From Nocardioides pocheonensis (GTDB taxonomy: Bacteria > Actinomycetota > Actinomycetes > Propionibacteriales > Nocardioidaceae): a stretch of 64,000 nucleotides of DNA. The translations under genes and the position numbers were made by a program. The notes beneath the pieces are model-generated. The model was not told where the DNA came from. It did no database searches and was given only the letters and a program-made list of their open reading frames with translations. Each line of letters starts with the position of its first letter. Position 1 is the first letter of the stretch. Location of the stretch: contig NZ_RJSF01000036.1 of assembly GCF_003725535.1 (NCBI RefSeq), forward strand, positions 62,001 to 126,000. The letters are read 5' to 3'. This document shows positions 30,518 through 49,671 of the stretch, piece by piece.

Positions 30518-30793
30518 TCAGATGGAGGCAGACTCACCCGTCGCCGCGGCGATGTTGTTGTGCTGGGTCCGGATGTCGTCCCGGCCCTCGTTCAGCGCCT
30601 GGTGGAGCTTGTCGAAGTGCGGCTTGAACTCCTCCCACGCCGAGCGGAACTTGTCGGCGTTGGCGCCCTTCCAGACGGCCTGGTTGACGTGGCCGTCGAG
30701 CGTGGTCTTGAACTCGAGCGCCTTCTGAGCGTGCTCGTCGAGCCCCTTGTGCAGGTTGCGCAGGGTCTCGAGATCGCCACCGACTTCAGCCAT
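30518..30793 (-). CDS. WXG100 (EsxA-like) secreted protein
   Basis: A 91-residue helical hairpin protein with the central W-x-G turn (QAVWKGANADKF, about residues 39-50) of the WXG100 family, which form dimers exported by FtsK-type T7SS ATPases. The ATG at 30793 follows AGAGGAAACACC; an upstream in-frame extension lacks a ribosome-binding site. Downstream of a GTTT-N16-GGGTAG promoter and followed by a hairpin. The classic C-terminal YxxxD/E export signal is not obvious. Confidence 0.87.
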   Translation of the reverse strand: MAEVGGDLETLRNLHKGLDEHAQKALEFKTTLDGHVNQAVWKGANADKFRSAWEEFKPHFDKLHQALNEGRDDIRTQHNNIAAATGESASI

Positions 30794-30875: not shown

Positions 30876-30901
30876 CTACCCGTGCCCACACCCCGCTAAA
30901 C
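30876..30901 (-). promoter_or_regulatory. SigB/SigF-type promoter of the WXG100 operon
   Basis: Reading leftward: -35 GTTT (30898-30901), 16-base spacer, -10 GGGTAG (30876-30881). Identical boxes and spacing occur before the FtsK-ATPase operon and the Tad operon. Predicted transcription start near 30869, giving a leader of about 75 bases before the ATG at 30793. The GTTT...GGGTA pattern is the known preference of SigB/SigF-group sigma factors. Confidence 0.8.
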
Positions 30902-30978
30902 AAGGCCGTTTCGATGGTTGGCCCGCACCCGGACGGGGAATGCTGACGCGACTCCAGACCCCGCTCCCAGGAGGTGTC

Positions 30979-31263
30979 GTGCCGCCGAAGCTGAAGGCGA
31001 ACCCCCGCAAGCAGGAGCTGGCCGACGCCCTGAGCCGGGCCCGGACGGTGGCCGGCACGATCCCCGGCATCCTGCAGCCGGCGGCAGCGGCCATGTCGGC
31101 GAAGGCGTGGGTCGGCGGCTCGTCGCACGACTTCGAGGCCGGCCTCTCCGAGCAGGCCCCGGCCGCGAAGAAGGGGGGCACCAGCTCGGTCGAGGAGATC
31201 CAGTCGGCCTACGACCGGTGTCCCGCCGAGATCCCGGATCCCACCGCGCAGGACGCCCACTGA
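30979..31263 (+). CDS. Small WXG-type protein
   Basis: A 94-residue protein: basic N-terminus, helix (QELADALSRARTVAGTIPGI), a turn containing AWVGGSSHDF (W-x-G), then a second helix. The GTG at 30979 follows AGGAGG. Its stop overlaps the next start (TGATG). Divergent from the leftward WXG100 gene across a shared control region; a weak GGTT-N15-GGGGAA element (30916-30940) might drive it. Likely forms an Esx-type partner for the next gene product. Confidence 0.7.
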   Translation: MPPKLKANPRKQELADALSRARTVAGTIPGILQPAAAAMSAKAWVGGSSHDFEAGLSEQAPAAKKGGTSSVEEIQSAYDRCPAEIPDPTAQDAH

Positions 31264-33440
31264 TGGGTGAGGCCACGATCGACCTCGACGCGATGCAGTC
31301 GCTGGTGGACACCATGAACACCGCGGCGACCGACCTGCGGGGCGCGAGGTCCGACCTGGCCGGCATCCTCTCCGGCGTCTCGCTGGACACCTCTCCGCCG
31401 TACCCGCTCGAGACGGCCGCGTCCTGGGTGGAGGGACAGGTCCCCGGCCTGCGCCGTCGGCTGGCCCTCGCCCAGGCGATCGCGGCCTCGAGCCCCGGCT
31501 TCCACGGCGGCGCCGTGCGCATCGAGGAGGACGACCTCAGCCGGTTGTCGCCCGCCGAGGCACAGCGCAAGGGTGCGGCCGCAGCGGCAGCACTGCGGGA
31601 CGCAGCCGGCATGCCCGACCCGGCCCTCGTCGCCGAGATCACGGCGAACCAGAACGATCCCTACTACGCAGCCGCGTTCGCCAAGGTCCTCAGCCCCGAG
31701 CAGCTCGCCACGATCGTCAAGGACGCGTCGGCCAGCTGGCAGGGCGGGTTCCCAGGGCCGACCGCGAAGGGCGCGCCGGGGTTCGACGAGTGGACCAAGC
31801 ACTACAAGGACGCGCTCGCTGCGATCGGCACGACGCTGGGCACGGCGACCCGCAACACCGCACCAGACCTGGCGCTGCCCCCGGACAACGCGCAGCGATG
31901 GGTGGACCAGTTCACCGCCGACATCGAGCAGCACGGCGACTCGCTGCGCGACTCCAACCAGGGCAACGCGCTGGGGCTCAGCTACCTGCTCACGTTCGGC
32001 ACGTACTCGACGCCGTTCCTCGACAAGGTCGCCACGGACGCCTACGACTACGAGCGCAGGCACGACGACGATCCCGTGTGGGCGCCGAAGACCGGCGGCG
32101 ACTACGGCTTCCCCGTCGACCCGCGGTGGGACCGCGAGAGCGTGGCCGACCTGGACGTGATGACGAACATCATGCGGGGGCTCAGCCACAACGCCGACGC
32201 CGCGCAGCACTTCTTCAGCCAGGGCGGCGACGACAAGGTGAAGATCAACGGCCAGGACGTCGAGGTCAACGCCCGCCTGCACTACCTCCTCCAGGACCGC
32301 ACGTGGTCCTCCAGCGACACCTCCGACGAGGGCGACGCGCTCGGTGACGCGCTGCGTGCCGCGACCACCGTCTACCGCAACCGGCTGGCGACCGGCGAGA
32401 CCTCGGCGACGATCGCGTCGCAGACGATCGCGCTGCTCGGCGACAAGACCGGCGACGGGGCCCACGGAGGCCACTGGTACCTGCTCGGCGGCGGGTCGTC
32501 GGCCGGCTGGAAGATGCCGGAGGCGTTGCGCTCCGACGTCGCGGACATCCTGGCGTCCTACGTCCCCGACCTCTTCCGCGAGTACAGCGACCCGGCCAAC
32601 CGGCCGAGCGACCTCGTCCCGCCCTGGTACCAGACCACCAACCCGCAGGGCGTGGACGGCGACCCGTTCGGGATGTCGCTGAACCACGACGACCTCTCCA
32701 AGCTCGTACAGACCCTCGGCGAGGACTCCGCGAACATCACCAAGATCAGCACGGCGGTCCTCGCCTACAACCAGTACCAGCTCAACGACCTCTTCGCCGG
32801 CATCACCGACCCGCAGACCAAGGTCGACATCCTCAACGGCAAGGACTGGCCGCCGCTGACCAACGGCATGAAGGTCGGCCCGAACGTGCTGACCCACCTG
32901 TTCACCGACGCCTACACCGGTGACGACCGACAGGAGAAGATCGACCAGGCGAACAAGGAGGCTCTCGACAAGTTCATCGACCTCGCCGGGAGCCTGCCCG
33001 TCGTGAACATCACGAACAAAGCCGGCTCGTGGGCGTTCGACGCGGTCAAGGGCCAGGTGCTCGACCAGCTGAAGAAGGGCCCGGACGCCACCGCCTCGAA
33101 GCTGTGGACCGACGAGGCGAACAAGGAGACCGAGGCGCTCACCCACAACTTCCAGAACGTCATGCTCCAGAACGGCTTCTACGATGCAGACGTGATCGAC
33201 CTGCTGCTGGCTCAAGGCACCAGGGACGGCGGCTACAGCGCTCCTCCGAAGGAGGCACTGCGCTTCGACGCCGACGGCAAGGTGGCGGGTTTCGACTTCC
33301 AGTCGACGGCGTACAACGAGTGGGCCACCGGCCACTACGACAAGGACACCCACCCCACGTGGGGAGCGATGCCGGGAGGCCAGCTCAGCGAGGGGATCAA
33401 GGAAATCTACGTGACGAACTTCGGAGTCCACTTCTCATGA
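31263..33440 (+). CDS. Large T7SS-associated protein, probably DUF6571-like
   Basis: A 725-residue protein. Residues 1-90 are a helical Esx-like segment (TIDLDAMQSLVDTMNTAATD). The body contains MTNIMRGLSHNADAAQHFFS, a pattern I recall from the DUF6571 family of long actinobacterial proteins found beside WXG genes. No classical signal peptide and no recognised toxin active site. The start overlaps the preceding stop by one base and its end overlaps the following lipoprotein gene (ATGA), so the three are one unit. Putative secreted substrate; the activity is unknown. Confidence 0.65.
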   Translation: MGEATIDLDAMQSLVDTMNTAATDLRGARSDLAGILSGVSLDTSPPYPLETAASWVEGQVPGLRRRLALAQAIAASSPGFHGGAVRIEEDDLSRLSPAEAQRKGAAAAAALRDAAGMPDPALVAEITANQNDPYYAAAFAKVLSPEQLATIVKDASASWQGGFPGPTAKGAPGFDEWTKHYKDALAAIGTTLGTATRNTAPDLALPPDNAQRWVDQFTADIEQHGDSLRDSNQGNALGLSYLLTFGTYSTPFLDKVATDAYDYERRHDDDPVWAPKTGGDYGFPVDPRWDRESVADLDVMTNIMRGLSHNADAAQHFFSQGGDDKVKINGQDVEVNARLHYLLQDRTWSSSDTSDEGDALGDALRAATTVYRNRLATGETSATIASQTIALLGDKTGDGAHGGHWYLLGGGSSAGWKMPEALRSDVADILASYVPDLFREYSDPANRPSDLVPPWYQTTNPQGVDGDPFGMSLNHDDLSKLVQTLGEDSANITKISTAVLAYNQYQLNDLFAGITDPQTKVDILNGKDWPPLTNGMKVGPNVLTHLFTDAYTGDDRQEKIDQANKEALDKFIDLAGSLPVVNITNKAGSWAFDAVKGQVLDQLKKGPDATASKLWTDEANKETEALTHNFQNVMLQNGFYDADVIDLLLAQGTRDGGYSAPPKEALRFDADGKVAGFDFQSTAYNEWATGHYDKDTHPTWGAMPGGQLSEGIKEIYVTNFGVHFS

Positions 33441-34072
33441 CGCAGCGTTGGGCGACGACCGCAGGTGCGCTCCTGCTCACCCTCACCCTCACTTCGTGCG
33501 GCAGCGACGACCATGGAGGAACCGTGAAGACGACGGTCTCGGGCACCTGCGCCCTGCACCGCGACAAGTACGCACTTTCGCCGGTCTCGGCCGACCGCCT
33601 CCGGGCGGCGCTCGGGCCCGGGACGTACACGCTCACCGGCGACGTCTCCAGCGACGACCGGTCCGACGAGGACGCACACACCGCGACGGGTGGGCACCGG
33701 TGGGGGCCACCGGGCCTCCCGATCGACGGCTCCTGCGACTACGCCGACTCCTCCGGGGTCCGCCGCCTCTCGGTCGGCATCGGGCAGAAGGACCTGCCCC
33801 ACAGCGGGTACGACGACGCGCGCCGGACCCAGCAGACCGACCCCCGGGCCCAGAAGGTCGACGGAGCCGACGGCTACGTGATCACCGAGGACGTCACCGA
33901 CCACGACGGTTCCCACGCGCAGCAGGCGGTGGCCGTGCTCTTCGACGGCGACAACCGCTACGTCACCGCCAACATCCTGGTGCCGACGAAGGGTGTCGAC
34001 AGCGCGAAGGAGGCGGTCGCGATCGCCCGCGAGGCGCTCGCTGCCTTCAACTCGCGCATGCGCTCGGCGTAG
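33437..34072 (+). CDS. Lipoprotein of unknown function
   Basis: A 211-residue exported lipoprotein: basic N-terminus, hydrophobic core and a lipobox ending LTSCGS, with the lipidated Cys at about residue 21. The mature part is hydrophilic with a GSCDYAD segment. ATGA overlap with the large upstream gene implies coupled synthesis. It could be an immunity or accessory partner of that protein; this is inference from coupling alone. Ends 27 bases from the convergent ATPase gene. Confidence 0.7.
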   Translation: MTQRWATTAGALLLTLTLTSCGSDDHGGTVKTTVSGTCALHRDKYALSPVSADRLRAALGPGTYTLTGDVSSDDRSDEDAHTATGGHRWGPPGLPIDGSCDYADSSGVRRLSVGIGQKDLPHSGYDDARRTQQTDPRAQKVDGADGYVITEDVTDHDGSHAQQAVAVLFDGDNRYVTANILVPTKGVDSAKEAVAIAREALAAFNSRMRSA

Positions 34073-34099
34073 GCACGCCCCTCAGCGCGCCAGGAGGCG

Positions 34100-37000
34100 T
34101 CACTCCGGCCAGATCACCTGCACCCGCTCCGGCGGAAGACCGGAGCGCATCAGGTAGCCGCCGCCCGGCGGGAGGGACTGGCCGAGCAGCGACCGGGCCA
34201 TCGAGGCGCCGAACATGTCGGGATCGGCCGAGCTCTGCGGCGTCAGCATCAGGCCGGAACCGGAACGCTTGAGGGCGACCACCGGTCCACGGTAGATCCC
34301 ACCCATCTCCGCGGGCGTGCCGGCCGCGGCCAGCACCGAGCCGGTGTCCCGCATGCGCTCGACGAGGTCGCCGAGCAGCGTCGGGAGCCAGCCGTCGGCG
34401 CCCAGCAGCTCGACGTCGTCGACGAGCGTGAGCAGCGGGGCGTCGGCCGCGAGGAGGTCGTCGACGAGGGCCTTCACCTCCGTCTCGTCACTGGTGGCGT
34501 CGAAGGGTCCGTGCACGCCCGGCTGCCCGACGAGGTCGCGCAGCGGACTGATCCGCGGCGTCACCACGACCACCTGCCAGCCACAGCGGAGGGCGAACGT
34601 CGCCATGGTCCGCAGCACCGTCGAGCGCCCCGAACGGCGTGGACCGGTGACGAGCAGGGCGGGCCCGTGGTGGAGGGCGTCCAGGGTGCGCACGGCGAGG
34701 GTGTCGCCTCCGACCGCGAGGGCCAGCTCGGTCGGCGGGAGCGGCTCGGCGAGCAGGTCGGCGGCCTGGTCGAGGCCGATCCGCATCGGCAGCACGTCGA
34801 GCCGGAACGGCCGCTGGTCGCGCGGCACGTCGGCGTACGTCGCGGCAGCCTCGCGGCCGATCGCCTGCAGCGCACCGACCTGCACCGTGCCGGAGGGGTC
34901 GTCGGCGAGCAGCGCCACCTGCGTCTCGCGCAGGCCCTCGGCGCGGAAGCCGCGTCCGTCGGGGATCACCGTGGGCACCTGCTTCGAGGTCATGCCGATG
35001 GTGCCGAAGTCCGACGGGTCGACCATCCGCAGCATCAGCTTGTCGTCGAACAGCGTCGACATCCGCCCGATCGTGAGGGTGCGGTCGCCGGTCATGACCA
35101 CCTTGATCCCGACCGCGGCGCCCTCCTGCATGATCTGCTGCCAGGCGGTGACCAGGCGCCCGCCGTCGATGCCGTCGTAGGCCTGGAAGAACCCCTCCCA
35201 GCGGTCGAACAGCACGACGACGTAGGGCAGCCGCTCGGGCGGCGGCACGTGGGCGCGCTGCTCGGTGACGTCGGCGAACCCGCCCAGCGCGAGCTGCTGC
35301 TGCCGGTCGGAGATCACGCCGCGCAGGCGCGCGACGAGCCGGTCCATCCGGTCGGTCTGGTCGCGGGTGACGATGGCGCCGACGTGCGGCAGCCCGACCA
35401 GCGGCAGCAGCGCGTTGTTGCCGCAGTCGACGCCGTAGAGATGGACGTCGGCCGGGCTGCACCACCGACCGACGGCGCCGGCGATGGCCCGCAGCGTGGT
35501 CGACCGCCCCGCGCGCGGTGCCGAGACGACGGCCAGGTGGCCACCGCCCGCGATGTCGAAGGTGGCCACGTCGCGGCGCTGCTCGGACGGCACGTCGACC
35601 AGGCCGAACGGGATCACCGGCGCGTCGACGGTGGGCGCGCACGCCGGGAACTGCTCGACGAGGTCGTCGAGGGTGAGCCCGTCGGCCAGGGGTGGCAGCC
35701 AGGGACTCGGCGGGGCCAGGATGCCGGACACCGCGCTGGCCTCGCGGGCCGCCTCGACGAGCGCGGCCAGGTCGGTGGGCACGGAGATGTCCTCCTCGGC
35801 CGCGACCGCGCGCTCCTCGGGGGTGCCGAGGGCACGGAACTCCACGGCCCGGAGGGTGACCTCGGCGCCGGCGTCCTCGCCGCGAGGCCTGCCGCCCACC
35901 CGCGAGGACTGGAAGGCGATCAGGCTCGAGTGGCCGAGTCGCGCGAAGCCGCGCCCCGGCGTCGACTTCGCGATCTGCGCGGCGTCGGCGGCCTCGAGCA
36001 CGTCCTGGGAGTCGCCCGCATCGGTGACCCGGAGCGCGATCCGGAGGTTGGTGTTCGACTTGATCTCGGCACTGACGACGCCGGCCGGTCGCTGGGTCGC
36101 GAGGATCAGGTGCACGCCCAGGGACCGGCCCCGGCGGGCGATGTCGACCAGGCCGGTGACGAAGTCCGGCAGCTCGGCGACCAGCGCGGCGAACTCGTCG
36201 ATCACGATCAGCAGGCGCGGCATCGGCGGGTCGTCGGGACCCTTCGCCGCCAGGTAGTCCTCGATGTCCTTGGCGTCGGCCGCGGCCAGCTGGCGCTCGC
36301 GCCGGTGGAGCTCGGCCCCCAGGCTCGCCAGCGCACGCGTCGTGAGGTGCCCGTCGAGGTCGGTGACCATCCCGACCGTGTGCGGGAGGTGGTTGCAGTC
36401 CTTGAACGCGGCGCCGCCCTTGTAGTCGACCAGCACGAAGTTCATCTCGTCCGGGCGGTTGCTCACGGCCAGCGACGCGATGATCGTCTGCAGCAGCTCG
36501 GACTTGCCGGAGCCCGTCGTACCCGCGACCAGCCCGTGCGGACCGTCGCGGCGGAGGTCGACGGCGAAGGCGCCGTCGGCGCCCTCGCCGATCACCGCCT
36601 CGGTGGTGCGGCCGATCGAGCGCCACCGGTCGAGCATGCCGTGGGGCGTCGGTGGATCGAGGTGGATCACGTCCAGCAGCCGCGATGAGGTGGGCACCGA
36701 CCCGGCTGCAGCCACGTCACTGACGTCGCGGACCGGCGCGAGCGCCCGGGCGGCGAGCTCGGCCCACGCCGTGCTCACGACGTCCGGGCGCACGCCCTCC
36801 ACGACCGGCTGCCCGGTGACCCGGACCGTGTAGTCGCCGTGGACCGCGTTGAGCACCGCCCGGCACTCCTCCGGCAGGAGGCGCTCGTCGGCGTCGAGGC
36901 AGAGGAAGTAGATCCGGACCCGCGGCCCGCCCTGCAGCAGCTCCGGTACGCCGGGCAGCAACCGCAGCCGCCGGGCACCGTCGAGCACGACGAGGACCGG

Positions 37001-38686
37001 CGCGAAGGGTCCCGCCGCCGCCCCACCGAGCGACGCGGCGTCGTCGGCGACCTGGCGCCGCTCCTGCATCATCGCGTGCAGCTCGGCGATCCGGCGTGCG
37101 GTCGACTCCTCGTCGACGCCGACGTGGGCGAGCTCGGAGTCACCGGCGTCGGAGCGCACGTGCGGCAGCCAGCGGACCCAGCTCCAGTCGGGGCCCGACT
37201 CGGCGTCGGTGAGCAGCACCATGTCGACGTCCGCCGGCGTGTGCAGCACGGCCGTCTGCCCGAGGATCCACCGAGCCAGCCCGAGCCGCTCCTCGGCGGG
37301 CCCGGCGATGCCGGTCACCCCGACCTCGGCCAGGTCGACGGTCACCGGCACGTCGGGCGCCGTCCACACCAGGGCACCCTGGTGCGCCTCACGCTGCGGG
37401 TTGTTCACGTGCACCTCGGACGGCAGGTCGGCCGTGCCGACCCGGGCCACCAGGAAGTCAGGATCGGTCTGGCGGCGCTCCCACAGCCGCGCGCGCGGGC
37501 CGACCGCGGTCATCAGCACCTCGGCGGGGTCGGCGAAGTCGCGGCGGCGGAACGTCCGCTCCTCGGCGAGCGCGTCGAGCGCCTCCTGCTGGATCCGGCT
37601 GGTGCGCTCGGCGAACTCGGCGAACTCCCGGGCGTAGCGCTGCTTGCTCTGCCGCCGGCCGGTGGTGAAGTTCCCGAGCGCCATCACGGGGGTCATGCCC
37701 ATGAAGATCAGAGAGAGCGCGTTCTTCGTGAACAGCCACATCACCGCGCCCATCACCAGAGGCGCCAGCACCATCAGCAGCGGGACCGGCGTCTTCTCCG
37801 GGCGACGGGGCTCCTGCGGGAGCGAGAACTGCGTGCGGCGTACCGGCGGGAGCAGGCGTGGGGGCCGGTTGTAGTCCAACGTGGCGCCGGCCGGGTTCGG
37901 CGACAGCGAGGCGTCCGGCGGGCTCACCGGCTGGACCGCGAGCAGGGTGTGCCCGACCGCGAGGCAGGCGCCCGGCGCCCACGCGACCCCCTCGGTGACG
38001 GCGGTGCGCTCGAGGTGCACCAGAGGTACGTCGGCCGCCGGGTCCACCGTCACGGTGCCGTCAGGCAGCGACTCCCCCGGCCGCGGCTTGCGCACGAGCT
38101 GTCGCACCTGCGTGCCGAGCACGATCGGCCCGTCGAGCCGGCGGCTGCGCACCGGCGCGGGCCGGGTGCGTCCGACGACCTCGGCGGTCGGCTCGAACCA
38201 GACGTCGCCGTCGGCACGCACGGTCACGGTGGCGCAGTGGCCGGGCACCTCCGGATCGACGACCCGGAGGTCGGCCGTCGGAGCAGAACCGAGCGAGTAC
38301 TCCCCGGCGTCCAGCCGGATCACGGTGCCCGCACCCGGGCCGCTGACGAACCGCACCTCGACGAGGCCGTGCGGCTCCGCGAGCGAGGCCGGCACGGGTG
38401 CACCGACGCCCAGCACGACGCCGTGGCGGATCGCGCTCGCGGCGAGCGGCTGCTCGGGTCGGAGCGGACCGTCCGGGAAGTGCAGCACCGGTACGGAGGA
38501 ACCCGCCGGCCGGTCGGCGCCGACCACGCGGAGCTGCGGCGGACCGGGTGCGGCCGGCTGCAGCGCGGCCATGGGGAACGCCTCGGCGAGCACGGCCGCG
38601 AGGTCACCGACCCGGGCGTCGTCCTCGGCGTCGATAGCGAGATCGACCGGGTTGCCGCCGACGACGGCGGTGATCAGCAGGCGCAT
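34100..38686 (-). CDS. eccC: FHA-FtsK/SpoIIIE T7SS ATPase (EccC/EssC type)
   Basis: The motor of a type VII secretion system, 1528 residues in one chain. Order: ubiquitin-like/YukD-like start (1-90), FHA-like domain (about 109-190, GEYSLGSAPTADLRVVDPE), two membrane helices (about 300-342), then three FtsK/SpoIIIE modules. Module 1 has canonical Walker A GTTGSGKSELL (about 720) and Walker B LLIVIDEFAAL (about 824). Modules 2 (SAPRAGRSTTL, about 1052) and 3 (GPRRSGRSTVL, about 1344) have Arg in place of the Walker Lys. FHA plus a single chain resembles EssC of Firmicutes rather than mycobacterial EccC. Nine bases after the LysM/BTAD gene. Confidence 0.9.
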   Translation of the reverse strand: MRLLITAVVGGNPVDLAIDAEDDARVGDLAAVLAEAFPMAALQPAAPGPPQLRVVGADRPAGSSVPVLHFPDGPLRPEQPLAASAIRHGVVLGVGAPVPASLAEPHGLVEVRFVSGPGAGTVIRLDAGEYSLGSAPTADLRVVDPEVPGHCATVTVRADGDVWFEPTAEVVGRTRPAPVRSRRLDGPIVLGTQVRQLVRKPRPGESLPDGTVTVDPAADVPLVHLERTAVTEGVAWAPGACLAVGHTLLAVQPVSPPDASLSPNPAGATLDYNRPPRLLPPVRRTQFSLPQEPRRPEKTPVPLLMVLAPLVMGAVMWLFTKNALSLIFMGMTPVMALGNFTTGRRQSKQRYAREFAEFAERTSRIQQEALDALAEERTFRRRDFADPAEVLMTAVGPRARLWERRQTDPDFLVARVGTADLPSEVHVNNPQREAHQGALVWTAPDVPVTVDLAEVGVTGIAGPAEERLGLARWILGQTAVLHTPADVDMVLLTDAESGPDWSWVRWLPHVRSDAGDSELAHVGVDEESTARRIAELHAMMQERRQVADDAASLGGAAAGPFAPVLVVLDGARRLRLLPGVPELLQGGPRVRIYFLCLDADERLLPEECRAVLNAVHGDYTVRVTGQPVVEGVRPDVVSTAWAELAARALAPVRDVSDVAAAGSVPTSSRLLDVIHLDPPTPHGMLDRWRSIGRTTEAVIGEGADGAFAVDLRRDGPHGLVAGTTGSGKSELLQTIIASLAVSNRPDEMNFVLVDYKGGAAFKDCNHLPHTVGMVTDLDGHLTTRALASLGAELHRRERQLAAADAKDIEDYLAAKGPDDPPMPRLLIVIDEFAALVAELPDFVTGLVDIARRGRSLGVHLILATQRPAGVVSAEIKSNTNLRIALRVTDAGDSQDVLEAADAAQIAKSTPGRGFARLGHSSLIAFQSSRVGGRPRGEDAGAEVTLRAVEFRALGTPEERAVAAEEDISVPTDLAALVEAAREASAVSGILAPPSPWLPPLADGLTLDDLVEQFPACAPTVDAPVIPFGLVDVPSEQRRDVATFDIAGGGHLAVVSAPRAGRSTTLRAIAGAVGRWCSPADVHLYGVDCGNNALLPLVGLPHVGAIVTRDQTDRMDRLVARLRGVISDRQQQLALGGFADVTEQRAHVPPPERLPYVVVLFDRWEGFFQAYDGIDGGRLVTAWQQIMQEGAAVGIKVVMTGDRTLTIGRMSTLFDDKLMLRMVDPSDFGTIGMTSKQVPTVIPDGRGFRAEGLRETQVALLADDPSGTVQVGALQAIGREAAATYADVPRDQRPFRLDVLPMRIGLDQAADLLAEPLPPTELALAVGGDTLAVRTLDALHHGPALLVTGPRRSGRSTVLRTMATFALRCGWQVVVVTPRISPLRDLVGQPGVHGPFDATSDETEVKALVDDLLAADAPLLTLVDDVELLGADGWLPTLLGDLVERMRDTGSVLAAAGTPAEMGGIYRGPVVALKRSGSGLMLTPQSSADPDMFGASMARSLLGQSLPPGGGYLMRSGLPPERVQVIWPE

Positions 38687-38695
38687 GCTCCGGGC

Positions 38696-41401: not shown

Positions 41402-41425
41402 GGTGTCTCCCCCTGGAGGCTGGTG

Positions 41426-42400
41426 CTACTGGACGACGAGGGCCTGGATCTCGGTGACCGACATCGGGGTCACCGCGGACTTCGTGAAGTCGTCGAGCGG
41501 CTCGAAGGTCCCGGCCTCCCCGGTCGCGGAGATCTCCACGACCCAGTGCGAGGTGATCTGCACCTGGAACTTCTCGTCGGCCTGGCCTGCCGAGGAGTGC
41601 AGGTACTTGTACCAGCACAGGCCGTCGCCGGGCCGGGGCGTCTGGCCGGGCGTGGCGGGAGTGCCGTTGCCGGGGCAGTCGATCCTCGGCGCCGACCCCG
41701 CGCCGAGCGGCTCGACGTAGGTGTGGTCGACGTGCGCGTGGATCACGGCGCCGAGCGGGCGCACCTCCAGCTCTCCGTCGTGCCCGTTGAGGAACGCGAC
41801 GTTCAGCCCGACCCTGGGATGGTCCGACGGGGAGACGACCGCGACCGGGTCGGGCACGTTGCCCTGTTGCCTCACACCGTCGACCAGGGTCTGCTGGTTC
41901 GCGGTCAGCGTCTGCGGAGGCGTGCCGTTGGTCAGGTGGATCAGCCAAGTCTTGATCTGGATCCCGCCCGGTTCGCGGGTCTTGGTCTTCGGGTCGATCC
42001 CGCTCAGGCAGCTGTGCCAGTAGTACGTGATGCCCTCGGGACCGGCCGTGTTCGCCTTGCCCATGGCCGCCAGGTCCTCGTCGCTCACCGGGTCGTCCCA
42101 GCAGGTCGGGACCGGATCCTTGCCGAGGATCTCCTTGACGCTCCGGCCCTCCGACTTCGACCCCGCACAGACGCCACCGATGTACTCCGGGCCGGAGACG
42201 ATCGAGCAGTTGTGCCAGGTGAGGTTCTTGGCGGGCCCGTTCTGCGAGGGCGGCGCGGTGGTCGTGGCCGTCCCCGTCGGCACGACGTCCGCCATGGACG
42301 GCGGAGCGGCGCCGCGCAGGAGGAGCGCGGGAACGAGGGTGAACAGGACTGCTGCCATGCCGGCAGCGGCCACGAGCGCGAACCGGGTCGACGACCTCAC
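41426..42400 (-). CDS. Secreted or membrane-anchored protein, unknown
   Basis: A 324-residue protein with an N-terminal signal anchor (FALVAAAGMAAVLFTLVPAL) and an extracytoplasmic domain rich in Cys and Trp (TWHNCSIV, TYYWHSC, GLCWYKYL), suggesting disulfides. The GTG at 42400 overlaps the previous stop (GTGA); a longer in-frame ORF upstream is a shadow. Second gene of the ATPase operon. Placement suggests a surface component replacing the missing EccB-like part, which is speculation. Confidence 0.65.
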   Translation of the reverse strand: MRSSTRFALVAAAGMAAVLFTLVPALLLRGAAPPSMADVVPTGTATTTAPPSQNGPAKNLTWHNCSIVSGPEYIGGVCAGSKSEGRSVKEILGKDPVPTCWDDPVSDEDLAAMGKANTAGPEGITYYWHSCLSGIDPKTKTREPGGIQIKTWLIHLTNGTPPQTLTANQQTLVDGVRQQGNVPDPVAVVSPSDHPRVGLNVAFLNGHDGELEVRPLGAVIHAHVDHTYVEPLGAGSAPRIDCPGNGTPATPGQTPRPGDGLCWYKYLHSSAGQADEKFQVQITSHWVVEISATGEAGTFEPLDDFTKSAVTPMSVTEIQALVVQ

Positions 42401-43011
42401 CACCGGACCTCCTTGATCGTGACCGAGGCACAGTCGCCGGTGCCGAGAAGGATCGCGTCGACCTTCCACGTCCCGGCCACCTTCTTCAGGTCCACGAGGA
42501 TCGGCTTCACCGACCGCGCCTTGCGGCCACCGACGGTCTTGCCGGTCTTCGCGTCCACCGACCACCCCGTGCTCAGCATGCAGGTGCTGACCGTCGCCGA
42601 CCCACGGCTGCTCCGCACGGCCGTGGGCGTGAACGGCTCGGGACCGGGCCAGTGGTAGCCGTGCTCGAGATCGCCCTTGACGGCTCCGCGGGTGGACTCC
42701 AGGCCGGCGGCGGTCGCGAGCGGAGCGACCGTGCCGAGGGTGCGGTCACCCGCGTTGACGGCCTGCCCGACGGCTGCGAAGTACGCCCGCAGGGCCTGCA
42801 CCTGGGGCCGGCCCTCGAACGCGGAGAGCGGCTCCTCGCTCGGCGTGGCCGTCGGACTGGGGGTCGGGGTCGGGGCCGCGCTGGTCGACACGGTCGTGCT
42901 GGGCCCGTCGCTCGACTGCGCGTCGCTGCCACCGCACGCCGAGGCGAGCAGGGCGAGGGCAGCGAGGATGCCGCACAGGGCCGTCGCGCGTGCACGGGTC
43001 GACGACCTCAC
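42397..43011 (-). CDS. Lipoprotein, first gene of the ATPase operon
   Basis: A 204-residue protein: signal peptide (LCGILAALALLASACGG, Cys lipidation likely), a Ser/Thr/Pro-rich linker, then a domain resembling the DUF6318/NTF2-like lipoproteins of actinobacteria (VQALRAYFAAVGQAVNAGD, then TWKVDAILLGTGDC). GTG start at 43011 after CAGGAG. The SigB/SigF-type promoter lies 75 bases upstream. Its first 17 coding bases are identical to those of the next gene. Confidence 0.7.
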   Translation of the reverse strand: MRSSTRARATALCGILAALALLASACGGSDAQSSDGPSTTVSTSAAPTPTPSPTATPSEEPLSAFEGRPQVQALRAYFAAVGQAVNAGDRTLGTVAPLATAAGLESTRGAVKGDLEHGYHWPGPEPFTPTAVRSSRGSATVSTCMLSTGWSVDAKTGKTVGGRKARSVKPILVDLKKVAGTWKVDAILLGTGDCASVTIKEVRW

Positions 43012-43085
43012 CGACTGCTCCTGATTCCCGGCAGCGGCGGCGGAGGCCGAGCCCCCCGAGGACCGCGCGCGCCTGCGCGAGAGGT

Positions 43086-43111
43086 CTACCCGTCGACCGA
43101 GATCGTGAAAC
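43086..43111 (-). promoter_or_regulatory. SigB/SigF-type promoter of the FtsK-ATPase operon
   Basis: Reading leftward: GTTT (43108-43111), 16 bases, GGGTAG (43086-43091). Same boxes and spacing as at 30.9 kb and 49.65 kb. Predicted start near 43079, about 68 bases before the lipoprotein GTG. The rest of the 43012-43271 gap shows no gene. Confidence 0.8.
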
Positions 43112-43271
43112 ACGCTGCATGCCTTCCCGAGATTTCGTGCCGTCGCCACCTGGACAACGGGCGAGGTCGCCGACCGTGACGGCGTACGGCGCGACCGTGT
43201 GCGGGAACAGCCCACCAGCGGGTTCGTCGCCCGGTCAAGTCGGTCGCGCGCGACCGTCCGTGCGGGCCCGG

Positions 43272-43724
43272 TCACTTCTCGGCCTTCGTGACGCCCTCGT
43301 AGGGCCGGGCTCGCGCGGTGGCCTTCGCCGGAAGGTTGCCCGGGTGGACGATGCCGAGCAGCGACGGCTTGATGCTCAGGCTCGCCTCCGTGACCACCAC
43401 GAGCATCCTGGGGTCGTCCTTCGAGACCGGCTCGATCCGCACGAAGTGGCACTCGGCCTGGCCGAGCTGCTGGACGCGGTCGCAGTACGTGCGCACGCGA
43501 ACCTGCACGAGGGCGTCGTCGAGCTGCAGGTCGCTCGCGTCGATGTTGATGGCCTGCGCACCCGCGCGGGCCGCCTCCTCGGCGTACGCCACCGCCTCGC
43601 CGCGGGCGTTCAGCTGGCGGGAGCCGTCGATGCCGAGGCCGCCGAGCAGGAGCAGCACCAGGCCGATGATCGGGATCGCGGGTGCGATCGAGCCCCGTTC
43701 GTCGCGGATCCGGCGGCCGGTCAC
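43272..43724 (-). CDS. TadE/TadG-like pilus-associated protein
   Basis: A 150-residue protein with a short basic leader (RDERG), then SIAPAIPIIGLVLLLLGGLG, a hydrophobic helix, then an extracytoplasmic domain. This is the pseudopilin-like plan of Tad minor proteins, but the +5 Glu required for normal prepilin processing is absent. Last gene of the Tad operon; its ATG overlaps the previous stop. Three such proteins in a row are usual for actinobacterial Tad loci. Confidence 0.75.
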   Translation of the reverse strand: MTGRRIRDERGSIAPAIPIIGLVLLLLGGLGIDGSRQLNARGEAVAYAEEAARAGAQAINIDASDLQLDDALVQVRVRTYCDRVQQLGQAECHFVRIEPVSKDDPRMLVVVTEASLSIKPSLLGIVHPGNLPAKATARARPYEGVTKAEK

Positions 43725-44158
43725 TGCAGCCCCCGGTAGGGGTCGAGCATCGAGGTGAACGACGACCGGGCGGTGAGCGTGCCCGGCGCCCCGGGGAGCC
43801 CGAGGTCGGAGATGTCGTAGGTGCAGTCGGCGTCGACGGTGATCGGCCTGCCGGCCTCGTAGGGAAGCCCGACGGCGACGTGGAGCGAGTTCTGGCAGGA
43901 CTGGGGCGCGTCCTTCATCGCGTCGAGGAGCACGGCCCGGGCCCGGTCGCGGGCCTCGTCGTAGGAGCGGGCCAGGGTGACGCTGCGGGCCGCGTCGCGG
44001 GTGCCGGACTCGAGGGTGCCGTTGACCTGCGCCGCGCGTCCGTAGACGAAGATCAGCGCGAAGATCAGCAGGATGCTCGGAGCCAGCATGGCCAGCTCGA
44101 TCGCCAGCGAGCCGGACTCCGAGCGCCGGCGGGTGTGCCCCCTCACGGGATCGGTCAT
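43721..44158 (-). CDS. TadE-like pseudopilin
   Basis: A 145-residue protein with cleavage region SESG/SLAIE (Gly at -1, Glu at +5) followed by a membrane helix (LAMLAPSILLIFALIFVYG) and an outer domain. The +5 Glu fits processing by a TadV/CpaA prepilin peptidase, which is not encoded in the window. Overlaps both neighbours by four bases. Confidence 0.82.
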   Translation of the reverse strand: MTDPVRGHTRRRSESGSLAIELAMLAPSILLIFALIFVYGRAAQVNGTLESGTRDAARSVTLARSYDEARDRARAVLLDAMKDAPQSCQNSLHVAVGLPYEAGRPITVDADCTYDISDLGLPGAPGTLTARSSFTSMLDPYRGLQ

Positions 44159-44556
44159 CGGGCGCCCTCGAACCGCTCGACCGGCCCTTCGGCCTCCTCG
44201 GTGACCGTGAGGTCGAGCATCGGGATCAGGGAGATCACCCGGCCGTGCACCTTCATCCGGACCCGCCCCTGCTCGGCGTCGTACGCCGGTGTCGCGAGCG
44301 GGTCGATCAGCGCCTCGCGGCCCACCGAGGTGGCGAACTGCTCGGTGTTGGCCTTCACCCCGGCCCGGATGTCGAGGTAGGTGGCCTCATCCTGGGCCAG
44401 CCGGAGCTGGGAGACCCCTTCGCGCGCCGACTGGATCGCGACGCTGCGGCCGTAGAAGAAGAGCGCCCCCTGGATCGCGAAGAAGATCAGGAAGATCAGG
44501 GCCGGCGCGACGAACGCGAACTCGACCGCGCTGACGCCGCTCTCGTCGCGCCTCAG
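44155..44556 (-). CDS. TadE-like pseudopilin with probable CTG start
   Basis: A 133-residue protein: RRDESG/VSAVEFAFVAPAL then a hydrophobic helix and outer domain, standard TadE layout with Gly -1 and Glu +5. No ATG, GTG or TTG lies in frame at a sensible position. A CTG at 44554-44556 overlaps the flp stop as CTGA, exactly mirroring the ATGA/GTGA overlaps elsewhere in these operons, so re-initiation at CTG is proposed. The next upstream candidate (GTG inside flp) would add a non-conserved Arg-rich stretch. Confidence 0.72.
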   Translation of the reverse strand: MRRDESGVSAVEFAFVAPALIFLIFFAIQGALFFYGRSVAIQSAREGVSQLRLAQDEATYLDIRAGVKANTEQFATSVGREALIDPLATPAYDAEQGRVRMKVHGRVISLIPMLDLTVTEEAEGPVERFEGAR

Positions 44557-44777
44557 GGGCCGCAGGCGCTGCCGGCGGGCTTCGAGGCGCAGTCGTCGAG
44601 CTGGGCGCTCTTGTTGGTCACGATCTTCATCACGACGACGCCGATCACGGAGGCCGCGACCACCACGATGGCGGCGATCATGGCCCACTCGATGACCGAA
44701 GCGCCGTCCTCGCTCTGCCGGATCCGGCGGAAGCGGAAGTGTGCGTCCTGCAGCAGCAGCACTGCCAAGCTGATCAT
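44553..44777 (-). CDS. flp: Flp-type major pilin
   Basis: A 74-residue prepilin: leader of 25 residues, cleavage after Gly25 (SEDG/ASVIEW, Glu at +5), then the hydrophobic assembly helix AMIAAIVVVAASVIGVVVM and a short tail with two Cys. ATG at 44777 follows AGAAGGAG. Building block of the Tad pilus, polymerised by TadA/B/C. Confidence 0.87.
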   Translation of the reverse strand: MISLAVLLLQDAHFRFRRIRQSEDGASVIEWAMIAAIVVVAASVIGVVVMKIVTNKSAQLDDCASKPAGSACGP

Positions 44778-44828
44778 GGGTCTGGGTCTCCTTCTCGGTG
44801 GGGTCGTGCACGTCAGGGCCGCCGATCC

Positions 44829-45752
44829 TCAGGCGGCGAGGAGCTTGGACACGGCCGGGTAGGCCAGGAACAGCAGGAACGCGGTGCTGATCAGCATCTG
44901 GGCGACCAGCATCGACTGCGACTTCTCGCCCTCCTCGCCCTCGGCCTGGGTGAGCTCGCGGCGCCGCAGTGTCGCCGCCCGAGCGGAGAGGGAGGAGCGG
45001 ATCTTGGCGCCGTCGTCGGCGGCGAGCACGAGCGCACCGGAGAGCTCCTTGAGCTCCTCGACGTCGATCTCGCGACCGAGGTCGCCCAGCGCGACCCAGG
45101 GCGTGGTGCCGTACAGCCGGGCGTTCGCCAACGCCTGCCGGATCCGGACCATCGACCAGTGGTCGCCCACGCTGGCCGCGGCGAGCAGCGCCTCCGGCAG
45201 GCCGCGCCCCCCGGCCAGGTTCATCGCGACCAGGTCGAGGAAGACGCCCACGCTGCGCCGGAAGTCGCGGCGTCGCGCGGCCGCCTCCGAGCGCAGGGCC
45301 AGGTCGGGCAGGAAGAACCCGAACGCCGCGAACGCGAGCGCGGCGACCGCGGGGATCGCCGTCGGCAGGGGGGCGCCGGCGACGGTCGTCATGGTCCACA
45401 CGAACGGTGCGAGCAGGAACAGCCCGAACCCGGTGGCGACCTTCGTGGCCAGGTGGGTGCCGCGGGTGCGGCCCATCAGGGCCAGGTCGGCGCGCTGCTG
45501 GCCGAGCTCCCAGCCCCGGTCGGCCGCCAGCACCTCGAGCCGGTCCGACAGCGAGGCGAAGGCCGAGCGCGCGCGGCGGTCGAGCGCACCGCCCGACTCG
45601 TAGGCCGTCGTGGTGTGCGTCGTCATCGAGCGCTGGCCCCGGCTGATCCGGGCGAGCGCCTCCGCCACACCCGGGCGGGGCCGCAGGAACACCCGTACGA
45701 AGGCGTAGACCCCCAGCCCGGTGACGGCTCCGAAGAACAGCGCCGCGATCAT
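44829..45752 (-). CDS. tadC: Tad platform protein TadC
   Basis: Inner-membrane platform protein, 307 residues, with a GspF/T2SSF domain (about 130-270, RRDFRRSVGVFLDLVAMNLA, then GGRGLPEALLAAA) and membrane helices at both ends and in the middle. The ATG at 45752 overlaps the tadB stop (ATGA). Works with TadB and the TadA ATPase. A 51-base gap separates it from flp. Confidence 0.87.
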   Translation of the reverse strand: MIAALFFGAVTGLGVYAFVRVFLRPRPGVAEALARISRGQRSMTTHTTTAYESGGALDRRARSAFASLSDRLEVLAADRGWELGQQRADLALMGRTRGTHLATKVATGFGLFLLAPFVWTMTTVAGAPLPTAIPAVAALAFAAFGFFLPDLALRSEAAARRRDFRRSVGVFLDLVAMNLAGGRGLPEALLAAASVGDHWSMVRIRQALANARLYGTTPWVALGDLGREIDVEELKELSGALVLAADDGAKIRSSLSARAATLRRRELTQAEGEEGEKSQSMLVAQMLISTAFLLFLAYPAVSKLLAA

Positions 45753-46690
45753 CGGGCGCCCGCCCGCGCCGGTGACGAACCCTGCGACGGGCCCTGGCTC
45801 TGCGCCTGCGCCTCCACCGGTGCCCGGTCCGTCCGCGACTCTCCCTGGGGGCCGAACACCAGGAACCGGTCGGTCTTCGAGGGCGCCGAGAGGCTGCGCA
45901 GCCACAGCAGGCCCGCGGAGAACAGCCCGGCGATCACGACCAGGACGACCTGGCCGGCGATCGAGCCGTAGGGCTCGACGTAGGGGCGGTTCAGCAGGCT
46001 GAGCATGCCCATCATGCCGAGCACGATCAGCAGCACGATCCGCACGCTGCGGCGGATGCTCTTCCGGCTGGCCTCGATCCGCCGCCGCATGTCCAGCTCC
46101 TCGCGCGTGGACGTGGCGAGCGCGGTGAGGACGTCACGCAGGCCCGGCCCGCGCAGCCGGGCGTTGAGCAGAAGGGAGGCGCAGATGATGTCCGCGCTCG
46201 GGTCGTCGAGGTCCTCGGCGAAGGCGCGCAGGGCGTCGGGGAGCGGCTCGCGGATGCGCAGCCGGTCGACGAGGAGGTTCAAGGAGGGCCGGATCGGGGT
46301 GCCGGCGTTGACCGCGGTCGCCGGGATCGCCTGCTCGAGGCCGATCGCGCCCGCGATCGTGTCGCGCAGGGACTCCGTCCAGCTGGCCAGCGCGTCGAGC
46401 CGCGCGATCGCCCGCTTCTCGACCGCCGAGCTGCCGGCGATGCGGTCCCAGTAGGCGACCAGCAGGCCGATGCTGATCCCGGCCACGACCCACCGGGTGG
46501 CGAGCAGGGCCAGCAGGCCGGCCGCGATGCCGAGGACGAGGCGGCGGGTGCGCTCCTGGAGGCTGGCCCGCTGCTTGCGCGGTGTGCCGGCCGGCCGGTG
46601 GGGCACCCCGACGTACGCGACGACCATCGCGAACAGGCCGAGCCCGACGACGGCACCGCACCCGAGCGCGACCAGCAGGGACCCGGTCAT
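45749..46690 (-). CDS. tadB: Tad platform protein TadB
   Basis: About 313 residues with a GspF/T2SSF core (DTIAGAIGLEQAIPATAVNA region) and four or five membrane helices, the second platform subunit. Its ATG shares one base with the tadA stop (TGATG). The C-terminal tail after the last helix is hydrophilic and Gln/Ser-rich, unusual but not disruptive. Confidence 0.87.
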   Translation of the reverse strand: MTGSLLVALGCGAVVGLGLFAMVVAYVGVPHRPAGTPRKQRASLQERTRRLVLGIAAGLLALLATRWVVAGISIGLLVAYWDRIAGSSAVEKRAIARLDALASWTESLRDTIAGAIGLEQAIPATAVNAGTPIRPSLNLLVDRLRIREPLPDALRAFAEDLDDPSADIICASLLLNARLRGPGLRDVLTALATSTREELDMRRRIEASRKSIRRSVRIVLLIVLGMMGMLSLLNRPYVEPYGSIAGQVVLVVIAGLFSAGLLWLRSLSAPSKTDRFLVFGPQGESRTDRAPVEAQAQSQGPSQGSSPARAGAR

Positions 46691-48029
46691 CAGGTCCACC
46701 GCGCCATGGTCTCGGGCTGGTAGCCCTGGGTGAGCAGGTCGTCGAGGCAGCTGATCGGCGCGTGCGCGGCGACGTTGCCGCTGCGGTCGAGGGCGAACAC
46801 CTCGCTGGAGAGCACGCGCCCGTCGACGCCGGTGACCTCGCGGACACTCTCGACCATGCGGGTCAGCCGGCCGCCGTGGTCGTAGTCGTTGCGCTTGCGC
46901 ATGAACACCACGAAGTTGATCGAGCCCGCGATCAGCATGTGCGTGGCCTCGACCGGCAGGTGCTCCTGGGCCTGTGCAGCGCGTACGTCGCGATCCGGTT
47001 GAACACCTCCATCGAGGAGTTCGCATGGATCGTCGACAGCGAGCCGTCGTTGCCCTGGCTCATCGCGTTGAGCATGGTCACGATCTCGTCGCCGAGGACC
47101 TCGCCGACGATGACGCGGCTGGGGTTCTGACGCAGCGACCGGCGGACCAGCTCGGCCATGCTGACCCCGCCGAGGCCCTCGGAGTTCGGCAACCGCTCCT
47201 CGAAGGCCACCACGTTGGGATGGAGGTCCTCGAACTGGTCGAGGCCGAGCTCGAGGGCGCGCTCGACGGTGATCAGGCGCTCGACCGGGGGGATTTCGTT
47301 GGCGAGCGCGCGCAGCAGGGTGGTCTTGCCGGAGTTGGTCGACCCGGCGATCATCACGTTCTTGCGCGCGCGTACGGCGGCCCGCAGGAACGACGCCAGC
47401 TCGGGGGTGATCGTGCCGTTGCCGACCAGGTCCTCGAGGCCGACCCGGCCGAGCCGGGAGCGCCGGATCGACACGCTCGGCCGGGCGCAGACCGACATGA
47501 CGGCCGAGAGTCGCGAGCCGTCGGGGAGCCGCAGGTCGAGCTGCGGGTTGGCGGTGTCGAACGGCCGCGACGCCAGGCCGACGCTCGCGGCGAGGATCTG
47601 GATCAGCTCGACCAGCTCCTCGTCGCTGTCGGCGACCGGGTCGGCGAGCTCCTCGTGACCGTCGGCGTAGCCCACGAAGACGCGGTCGCAGCCGTTGATG
47701 TCGATGTTCTCGACCTCGGGGTCCTGGAGCAGGGGCTGGAGCCGGCCGACCCCGAAGAGCGCCGCGTGGATCGCGGCCGCGACCACCTCCTCCTCGTCGG
47801 CCGTCGGCGGGGTGCGGCCCAGGGTGATCTCGGCACGGGCGTGGTCCTCGAGCACCTGCACGATCAGCGACCGGGCGAACTGGCGCTCGTCCTCGGGGGA
47901 CATCGCGGCCCGGCCCAGCACCTCGTCGCTGCGCCGCTGCTGGTTCAGCCGGTCGGCGACCTGCGCCCGCAGCATGCGCACGAGCTGCGGGTCGGCACCC
48001 AGGCCGGTGACCGGCCCCGTGGTCGTCAC
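46690..48029 (-). pseudogene. tadA: Tad secretion ATPase TadA/CpaF, frameshifted
   Basis: Hexameric ATPase powering Flp pilus assembly. From the GTG at 48029 the frame encodes the N-terminal domain, Walker A (IAGSTNSGKTTLLRALANE), the Asp/Glu boxes and the His box (STIHANSS), up to FNRIATYAL. There the frame runs into a short nonsense tail ending at 46932. The homologous C-terminus (QEHLPVEATHMLIAGSINFV, ending ETMARWT) continues in another frame. The junction is at 46971-46980, where an extra CA (or one missing base) explains the break. Either a sequence error or a recent inactivating mutation; no obvious slippery site. Confidence 0.82.
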
Positions 48030-48853
48030 GACGCCCTCCTGCGGCCCCTGCGGGAGCGGGCACGGACGTCGTCGGCGACCGCGGCCGGGTCGGGTGCGGC
48101 GACGGCGCCACCGAGGTCGGCGTACAGGCGCCGGGCGAGGGTGTGCCCGCTGCGCACCAGGAGGCTGCGCTCGGGACGGAACACCTCCCCGCCCTCGTAC
48201 ATGGCGACGGTCGCGTCGTCCCGTGCGACGACGCCGTAGTCGGACACCCACGGGAGCCCCTGAGCCACGCCGGCCGCGGCGGCGGCGACGTCGCGGGACT
48301 GCGCGGTCGTCGCGACGCACACGATGCCGACCCGGACCTGGCGGTCGCGGAGCTGGTCCTCCAGGGACTCCAGCCGGCGACGGGTGTGGATCACGCTCCA
48401 GGCGCTGGGCCGGTAGACGCACAGCAGCGCGGCCGACCGCTCGACCATGGCCAGGTGGGTCGAGCGCGCGTTGACCTGGCCGATGTCGGCGAACACGTCG
48501 ATGCCCGGGACCCGCGCGAACGCCTGCGCCAGGCTCGGCCACAGCGGGGCGGCGGCGACCGCCTGCTCCGGGCCGGGGAGCCCGGCCAGCACCTGCTGGC
48601 CACCGAGCGCCGTCTGGGCGTGCGCGACGACGGTCTGCGGCTCCAGCCCGCGCCGGGCCGCCGGCAGCAGCGACATCAGGCCCTGGTTGAGGTCGAGGGG
48701 GCCGTGCTCGCCGGGAAGCTTGAGCGCGACGTCGCCGCCGAGCGGGTCGGCGTCGGCCAGGATGCTCGGGGCCGGCCAGAGGTTCGCCAGCAGCATGCTG
48801 GTCGTCGTCGCCCCGGGCGCACCCTTGGCCGACATCACCGAGATGAGTGCCAT
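48026..48853 (-). CDS. CpaE/TadZ-like MinD-family protein with altered P-loop
   Basis: A 275-residue protein of the ParA/MinD superfamily that localises Tad machinery. The deviant Walker A normally reads KGGxGKT; here it is SAKGAPGATTTS, retaining the signature Lys but having Ala where the second Lys belongs. The partner Asp regions (ILADADPLGGD, VFADIG) are recognisable. It lacks the receiver domain of classical CpaE. Its stop overlaps the tadA GTG. Confidence 0.75.
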   Translation of the reverse strand: MALISVMSAKGAPGATTTSMLLANLWPAPSILADADPLGGDVALKLPGEHGPLDLNQGLMSLLPAARRGLEPQTVVAHAQTALGGQQVLAGLPGPEQAVAAAPLWPSLAQAFARVPGIDVFADIGQVNARSTHLAMVERSAALLCVYRPSAWSVIHTRRRLESLEDQLRDRQVRVGIVCVATTAQSRDVAAAAAGVAQGLPWVSDYGVVARDDATVAMYEGGEVFRPERSLLVRSGHTLARRLYADLGGAVAAPDPAAVADDVRARSRRGRRRAS

Positions 48854-48864
48854 CGGTGGCCTGC

Positions 48865-49545
48865 CTACTGCGTCTTCCAGTCGATGGACGGCCGGGTGTC
48901 GTCGGGCAGGATCGTGACGGCGAGGTTGCCGGAGGAGGCGAAGTTCGCGAGGTCGCCGGCGACGTCGCTGCGGACCAGCACGGTGATGCTGGTCGTGCCG
49001 GCGCCGGCGCCGTGGCCGACCGAGATCACGCGCGCGGCATTGACGATCACGGGGTTGCCCGGGGCCGCCTCGGTCGAGCTGCCGCTGCCGGAGACGAAGT
49101 AGACGCGGACGACCTGGCCCGTGCGGGGGACCTGGCTGGGACGACGCGTCGGGTCCAGGACGATGCCGACGCCTTCGCCGTTGTCCGGCACGAGCGTGTC
49201 GACGCTGAACATCTTCGGGCTGAGCAGGGCGCCCTGCGGCACGGCGCTGGTGGCGCGGGTGCCGACGTACGAGCTCACGAGGCGGGCCGGGACCAGGGCG
49301 GCGCCGTCGGCGGCGACGCGGACCGTGGAGAAGTCGCTGCGGCTCATCACCTGGCCGAAGGCGATGTCGTGGCTGGCGGCCAGGACGCTCTCGCGGTCGC
49401 CGCTGCGGAACACGAGCAAGGCGCTGCCGAGCGCGCCGAGGAGGATCAGCAGCAGCGCGAGTGCCGCGAGCGCAGGACGCCGGTCGCGCGGCGCCACCGG
49501 CAACCGACCGCGCTCGAACGTCTCGCGCTCCGGTGTCGAAATCAT
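48865..49545 (-). CDS. cpaB: CpaB-like SAF-domain pilus protein
   Basis: A 226-residue protein: cytoplasmic tail, one membrane helix (ALAALALLLILLGALGSALL), then a SAF domain (VLAASHDIAFGQVMSRSDF) and a RcpC-type region, as in CpaB/RcpC proteins of Tad systems. First gene of the pilus operon, about 94 bases after the predicted transcription start. ATG at 49545. Confidence 0.82.
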   Translation of the reverse strand: MISTPERETFERGRLPVAPRDRRPALAALALLLILLGALGSALLVFRSGDRESVLAASHDIAFGQVMSRSDFSTVRVAADGAALVPARLVSSYVGTRATSAVPQGALLSPKMFSVDTLVPDNGEGVGIVLDPTRRPSQVPRTGQVVRVYFVSGSGSSTEAAPGNPVIVNAARVISVGHGAGAGTTSITVLVRSDVAGDLANFASSGNLAVTILPDDTRPSIDWKTQ

Positions 49546-49645
49546 GCAGGTGTCTCCCGAGATCGAGTAGCCGTCAACCGGTCAGGCCCGACCAAGGCTC
49601 GTGGAACGCTCCCGAGACGGAGCTCTGCGCGGTGCCGGATCAGTC

Positions 49646-49671
49646 CTACCCGTGCCGCCAGGCGGCGAAAC
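49646..49671 (-). promoter_or_regulatory. SigB/SigF-type promoter of the Tad operon
   Basis: Reading leftward: GTTT (49668-49671), 16 bases, GGGTAG (49646-49651). Identical to the boxes at 30.9 kb and 43.1 kb. Predicted start near 49639. The spacer contains a small GCCGCC/GGCGGC symmetry. Confidence 0.8.

Follow-up and report, generated by a model that had tools for sequence, protein, structure and literature searches.

Shared SigF-type promoter elements as a candidate link between Tad pilus, EssC-like ATPase and WXG100 operons in Nocardioides pocheonensis

Three neighbouring operons of Nocardioides pocheonensis, encoding a Tad pilus, a series of proteins from a lipoprotein to an EssC-like ATPase, and a WXG100 protein, raise the question of whether they are switched on together and, if so, by which regulator. 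They lie in a stretch of 64,000 nucleotides (nt), here called the window (G000:C35:62001-126000, from a 4.92 Mb draft genome of 50 contigs), and all run in the same leftward direction: the Tad operon from 49545 to 43272, the lipoprotein operon from 43011 to 34100 and the WXG100 operon from 30793. A pattern scan confirmed the proposal of the initial annotation that each begins behind an identical copy of GTTT-N16-GGGTAG on the minus strand (GTTTAGCGGGGTGTGGGCACGGGTAG, GTTTCACGATCTCGGTCGACGGGTAG and GTTTCGCCGCCTGGCGGCACGGGTAG; positions in Table 1). The accompanying statement that the window holds no further match was wrong, as a fourth exact copy is present on the plus strand. These four are the only exact copies in the draft genome, the 16 other sites of the looser form described below including none. 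Near matches in the window (eight of nine positions) occur with a perfect GTTT at 33289 (plus strand, GCGTA) and 52154 (minus strand, GGGTC), and with GTGT at 1989 and 2382 (both plus strand) and 56014 (minus strand). Duplication of upstream DNA as the source of the four sites was ruled out, the strings that they have in common outside the boxes being of chance-level length (10-11 nt).

The elements resemble promoters of the SigB/SigF class. The consensus for Mycobacterium smegmatis SigF is GTTT-N14-19-GGGTA (PMC4694148) and that for Bacillus subtilis SigB is GTTTAA-N12-14-GGG(A/T)A(A/T), while a more conserved GTTT has been described in promoters of the Streptomyces sporulation sigma factors SigF, SigH and SigN (PMC8346170). 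In the window, GTTT -35 and GGGTA -10 boxes are separated by a spacer inside the published range. Assignment of the elements to the SigB/SigF promoter class, as originally suggested, is well supported by this consensus match, by the presence of a CsbD gene among the sites, by the occurrence of the promoter before genes for SigB/SigF-type sigma factors and by its recurrence in relatives.

Within the window, the form GTTT-N15-17-GGGTA has four matches, whereas 100 dinucleotide shuffles gave 0.02 on average and never as many as four; the whole genome has 20, compared with 3 for the reversed pattern. However, permuting the letters of the pattern gave 30 genome matches, and the reverse of that permutation 48, both more than the motif itself; the raw count is therefore no evidence, and genome-wide enrichment was discarded as an argument despite the low reversed control, leaving placement to carry the case. 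Genes around the 20 motif sites and the 30 permuted-control sites were called by one script, and two motif sites (L019 and L020), recognised by eye as resembling ribosomal RNA (rRNA), were set aside. Of the remaining 18 sites, 17 are intergenic, compared with 6 of 30 controls (Fisher 4e-7). The genome-wide search upstream of genes that had been suggested as a check showed that 15 of the 18 are intergenic and followed, no more than 200 nt away, by the start of a gene in the same orientation, which holds for 4 of 30 controls (Fisher 2e-6). Removal of the four window sites leaves 13/14 intergenic (6e-6) and 11/14 with a same-direction gene within 200 nt (4.5e-5), and retention of the rRNA-like matches gives 15/20 for the latter measure (1.6e-5). 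For four of the 18 sites to fall in a single stretch of 64 kb, the Poisson probability is 1e-4, calculated post hoc. Elsewhere in the genome, motif sites precede genes for CsbD (L018, Pfam 3e-14), a SigB-controlled stress protein of B. subtilis, and for FolB, an SGNH hydrolase, a LysM/transglycosylase protein, an alpha/beta hydrolase, a B12-binding protein and a glycosyltransferase. At seven sites (L001, L003, L005, L006, L013, L015 and L017), an ATG or GTG lies 9-12 nt after the -10 box, suggesting near-leaderless messages; for two of these (L015 and L017) the gene caller picked later starts.

The motif recurs in relatives at orthologous genes. Among three WXG100 orthologs (71-77% identity), that of G014 is preceded, at 91 nt, by a perfect motif set in dissimilar DNA, and that of G010 has GTTT-N16-TGGTA (8/9) at 61 nt. 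The closest named relative of the EssC-like ATPase is found in Nocardioides mangrovicus (L072, 73% identity, from a search that may omit very near genomes), where a perfect N15 motif precedes the lipoprotein gene and another the next gene; that genome has just six matches in all, and the ATPase gene there is inverted. In its own genome, N. pocheonensis has a second Tad locus (contig C40) whose cpaF gene (Pfam T2SSE) lies behind GTTT-N17-GGGTAG. Including this copy, the motif is perfect at 6 of 14 second-Tad cpaF orthologs and within one mismatch at 10 of 14 (L245 and L246, matches lacking the N-terminus, were left out), compared with 0 of 14 within one mismatch at cpaF paralogs of 38-42% identity, whose starts were extrapolated and are less sure. 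The corresponding Fisher values (0.016 for perfect motifs, 1.5e-4 within one mismatch) serve as a rough guide only, because the orthologs share descent and the paralog starts are uncertain. Summed over eight genomes of the same genus, the pattern occurs 89 times and its reverse 28 times (6 and 5 in G015); no weight is placed on this difference because reversal was the only control and the permuted pattern outnumbers the motif in the N. pocheonensis genome. The motif was also noted before genes that look alike by eye in G010 (L190) and G014 (L194), the former encoding a transglycosylase SLT_2 domain. In G010, another copy lies 10 nt before an open reading frame (ORF) of 114 amino acids (aa) with no Pfam family and, by eye, a WXG100-type helical look (L191).

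The best reading of these observations is an autoregulated SigF-type regulon that would include both Tad loci, the EssC-like ATPase operon and the sole WXG100 gene detected in the genome. We consider it probable that the elements are -35/-10 promoters read by a SigB/SigF-family sigma factor, the likelier of two candidates being that encoded on contig C40 (G000:C40:947386), and that the three operons, the second Tad locus and stress genes start together; binding and transcription are in this case inferred from sequence. RNA polymerase carrying the alternative sigma factor would recognise the elements, and a promoter before the sigma gene itself would provide positive feedback. A stress or developmental signal would free the sigma factor, whereupon the three neighbouring operons would fire together; csbD and other general-stress genes would join the same response, as would the second Tad locus. 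The products would build or equip a surface apparatus made in that state alone. The initial annotation had envisaged one sigma factor switching on genes for both pili and secretion resembling a type VII secretion system (T7SS). Joint control by one sigma factor survives as the best reading of the shared promoters, but this genome encodes two of SigB/SigF type.

The products of the putative regulon allow more than one view of what would be built. In favour of the T7SS-like label are one WXG100 protein and an EssC/EccC-like ATPase, whose best NCBIfam matches are to these families although all three score below the curated cut-offs (EssC 590 of 778 bits, EccCa 401 of 509, EccCb 322 of 347); against it, a search of the genome for a YukD/EccD-type ubiquitin-like protein gave no PF08817 match, while the control search did recover B. 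subtilis. Secretion of this kind is thus a weaker proposition than either the promoter class or joint control, and a role in piliation or DNA uptake is no less plausible than protein secretion, because of the linkage to Tad genes and the genetics of Micrococcus luteus. In that organism, two tad loci are jointly needed for a competence pilus (PMC4322843), and mutation of an FtsK/SpoIIIE ATPase gene beside tad-1 lowers transformation at least 1000-fold (PMC8467076); N. pocheonensis likewise has two motif-bearing Tad loci, one adjoining an FtsK-type ATPase. The co-regulated genes may then specify a Tad-based machine for DNA uptake or piliation, in which the EssC-like ATPase serves as translocase, rather than a system for protein secretion, and the lack of a detectable YukD-type protein fits this. 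Relatives of CpaF, TadB, TadC, LysM-type and WXG100 proteins are encoded in the available flanks of all of the first 12 of 80 listed EssC-like loci (L072-L083); over the whole 80, most of them from Streptomyces, a Tad gene was detectable at only 22. The WXG100 protein itself suggests secretion. Competence genes were rejected as regulon members, as no motif was found within about 3.8 kb at the comEC loci of eight out of eight genomes, although a promoter further off is possible. We rate a machine for DNA uptake or piliation below an even chance.

The second of the two sigma factors, encoded on contig C34 (G000:C34:20501), adjoins an RsbW-like anti-sigma gene and has the higher SigBFG score, at 301 bits against a cut-off of 234, compared with 227 bits, just below that cut-off, for the C40 sigma; the best NCBIfam family of both is 'SigF', each scoring under the threshold of that family. 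Streptomyces SigB homologues have been described as reading one another's promoters (PMC8346170). The promoters could thus be real and read by the C34 sigma, or by both, as part of a broad stress response with no dedicated switch. Autoregulation of the rsbW-sigF operon was nevertheless rejected, since none of 21 such loci has a perfect motif and one has a near match, the reversed boxes likewise giving 0 and 1 (L272 was left out owing to short upstream DNA). This absence is not proof, because the SigF promoter of M. smegmatis can sit more than 1000 bp upstream of sigF (PMC4694148). The case for the C40-type sigma lies in the promoters of its orthologs: in G007, G019 and G018 (57-69% identity) a perfect GTTT-N17-GGGTAG lies at 79-82 nt, and two more distant sigma genes (G014 and G021) also have a perfect motif. 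Across the 30 sigma loci taken into the count, out of 52 genomes with a match, the motif is perfect at 5 and within one mismatch at 8, compared with 0 and 2 for the reversed boxes. In G014, the motif is also found before a gene for an RsbW-like ATPase domain (L199, HATPase_c_2). Control by the C34 sigma, alone or shared, seems rather unlikely to us. A gene for a GAF-ANTAR protein was observed downstream of a C40-type sigma gene (L187 3650-4510, plus strand).

Besides the raw counts given above, several observations weigh against an autoregulated SigF-type regulon of this composition. The C40 sigma gene itself has only an 8/9 match, GTTT-N15-TGGTAG, at about 70 nt; in its closest ortholog (G001, 85%) GGGTAG is retained without GTTT, and 25 of the 30 sigma loci have no perfect motif. 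The motif is also absent from the WXG100 ortholog of G013, from the sole close cpaB ortholog (L032, G010, 51%) and from 4 of the 14 second-Tad cpaF orthologs. Outside Nocardioides, conservation was rejected: strict matches are missing at 79 of the 80 EssC-like loci, the sole carrier being that of N. mangrovicus, and the 1.75 Mb that these loci comprise contain 2 matches compared with 5 for the reversed pattern. Finally, an intact CpaF protein from G010 matches the window cpaF in two reading frames meeting near 46974-46980. The split may be either a draft error or a broken gene, and the first Tad locus may therefore not work in this strain. Coincidental matches, with the operons transcribed from other promoters, would agree with the raw counts and with the gaps among orthologs, but this reading is made very improbable by the placement and clustering of the sites and by their recurrence before the same genes in relatives with differing flanks.

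The promoter of the second Tad locus has an additional feature. A DnaA-box-like site, TT(A/G)TCCACA, lies upstream of it in 12 of the 14 orthologs within one mismatch (exactly in 8), always in one direction, compared with 0 of 14 cpaF paralogs and a rate of 0.008-0.011 per 180 nt in the window; a TCCACA-bearing string starts 21-25 nt before the -35 box in 12 of the 14 (L232-L244, L255). The high-affinity DnaA box of Mycobacterium tuberculosis and Streptomyces coelicolor is TTGTCCACA (PMC4285127), and the N. pocheonensis copy (C40, near 146600) has the site with one mismatch, twice (TCGTCCACA). The three reported window promoters have no such site in the 70 nt preceding their -35 boxes. It is conceivable, if quite doubtful, that a self-amplifying SigF-type sigma factor builds one envelope machine from the two Tad loci, the EssC-like ATPase and the sole detected WXG100 protein, possibly for DNA uptake, and that DnaA gates the second-Tad promoter through the conserved box, tying pilus formation to replication state.

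Genes of the window are listed in Table 1. Those for a TadA/CpaF ATPase, TadB/TadC, TadE and TadG-type proteins occur together, as expected of a Tad pilus, with cpaF split; a candidate pilin ORF (44553-44777) has a DUF4244 match below its cut-off. For the lipoprotein, homologs of which are found at 6 of 17 loci compared, the GTG at 43011 is preferred as start because the lipoprotein-type signal comes after it; the start chosen by the gene caller would lie at 195 nt. A gene for a DUF6571 protein (30981-33440, plus strand) is located between the WXG100 and ATPase genes, divergent from the former, and dnaK is close to the WXG100 gene in this genome (24377-26233, minus strand) and also in G014 (L183 5498-7387, minus strand).

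Table 1. Putative promoter elements and associated genes of the window (positions count from the first nucleotide of the window).
Feature	Position	Strand	Remarks
SigF-type promoter element, WXG100 operon	30876..30901	-	exact match; GGGTA end to ATG at 30793, 83 nt
SigF-type promoter element, lipoprotein-to-ATPase operon	43086..43111	-	exact match; GGGTA end to GTG at 43011, 75 nt
SigF-type promoter element, Tad operon	49646..49671	-	exact match; GGGTA end to ATG at 49545, 101 nt
Fourth identical element	26461..26486	+	exact match; ATG at 26496 follows by 10 nt
183-aa ORF with hydrophobic stretches, behind fourth element	26496..27047	+	no Pfam or NCBIfam family found
CpaB-like protein with SAF domain, first Tad-operon gene	48865..49545	-	Pfam SAF above cut-off
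CpaE-like ATPase	48026..48853	-	named by eye and position; no Pfam family
CpaF (TadA) ATPase, in two reading frames	46696..48029	-	Pfam T2SSE on first part
Two TadB/TadC-type membrane proteins	44829..47026 (ORFs 45749-47026, 44829-45905)	-	Pfam T2SSF in both
TadE, TadE and TadG-type pseudopilins, small possible pilin ORF	43272..45399	-	Pfam TadE twice, Tad
Lipoprotein, first gene of operon	42397..43011	-	translated signal and LLASAC lipobox-like string
Second gene of lipoprotein operon	41426..42565	-	true start probably ~42400; no Pfam/NCBIfam family found
Membrane protein with LysM-like segment	38696..41401	-	weak NCBIfam LysM match below cut-off
EssC/EccC-like FtsK-type ATPase, 1528 aa	34100..38686	-	Pfam FtsK_SpoIIIE
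WXG100 protein	30518..30793	-	Pfam WXG100 above cut-off; NCBIfam WXG100_ESAT6 below cut-off

A SigF-type promoter common to these operons would point to a candidate regulator, to stress or development as the class of signal, and to a small set of partner genes. It would also join the WXG100 and EssC-like ATPase genes, despite their separate operons, with the pilus in a single regulated unit. A literature search covering titles and abstract openings of part of the matches found no SigB/SigF-type sigma factor tied to Tad pili in Actinobacteria, and no description of how Actinobacteria Tad pili and Tad-linked EssC/WXG100 genes are switched on.

Comparison with known systems places the proposed regulon between several of them. 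The ATPase of the window is related over most of its length to the EssC/EccC ATPases of type VII secretion, and a nearby operon encodes a WXG100 protein; the shortfall against the curated EssC/EccC cut-offs and the lack of a detected YukD-type protein in the genome set the present case apart. The tad-1/tad-2 competence pilus of M. luteus (PMC4322843, PMC8467076) is similar in having two Tad loci, one beside an FtsK-type ATPase; a word search of PMC4322843 did not find 'sigma', and the sigma passages of PMC8467076 tie no sigma factor to tad. The sporulation-type promoters of the S. coelicolor SigB homologues have, as here, a GTTT -35 and a GGGTA-like -10 box (PMC8346170), and the main text of that paper mentions neither pili nor type VII. 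The boxes and spacer range of the M. smegmatis SigF regulon, GTTT-N14-19-GGGTA, are the same as those described here (PMC4694148). The main text of that paper is without the words pili, Flp, Tad, secretion, ESX, type VII and WXG, whereas the sites in N. pocheonensis take in two Tad loci, a WXG100 gene and an EssC-like ATPase operon.

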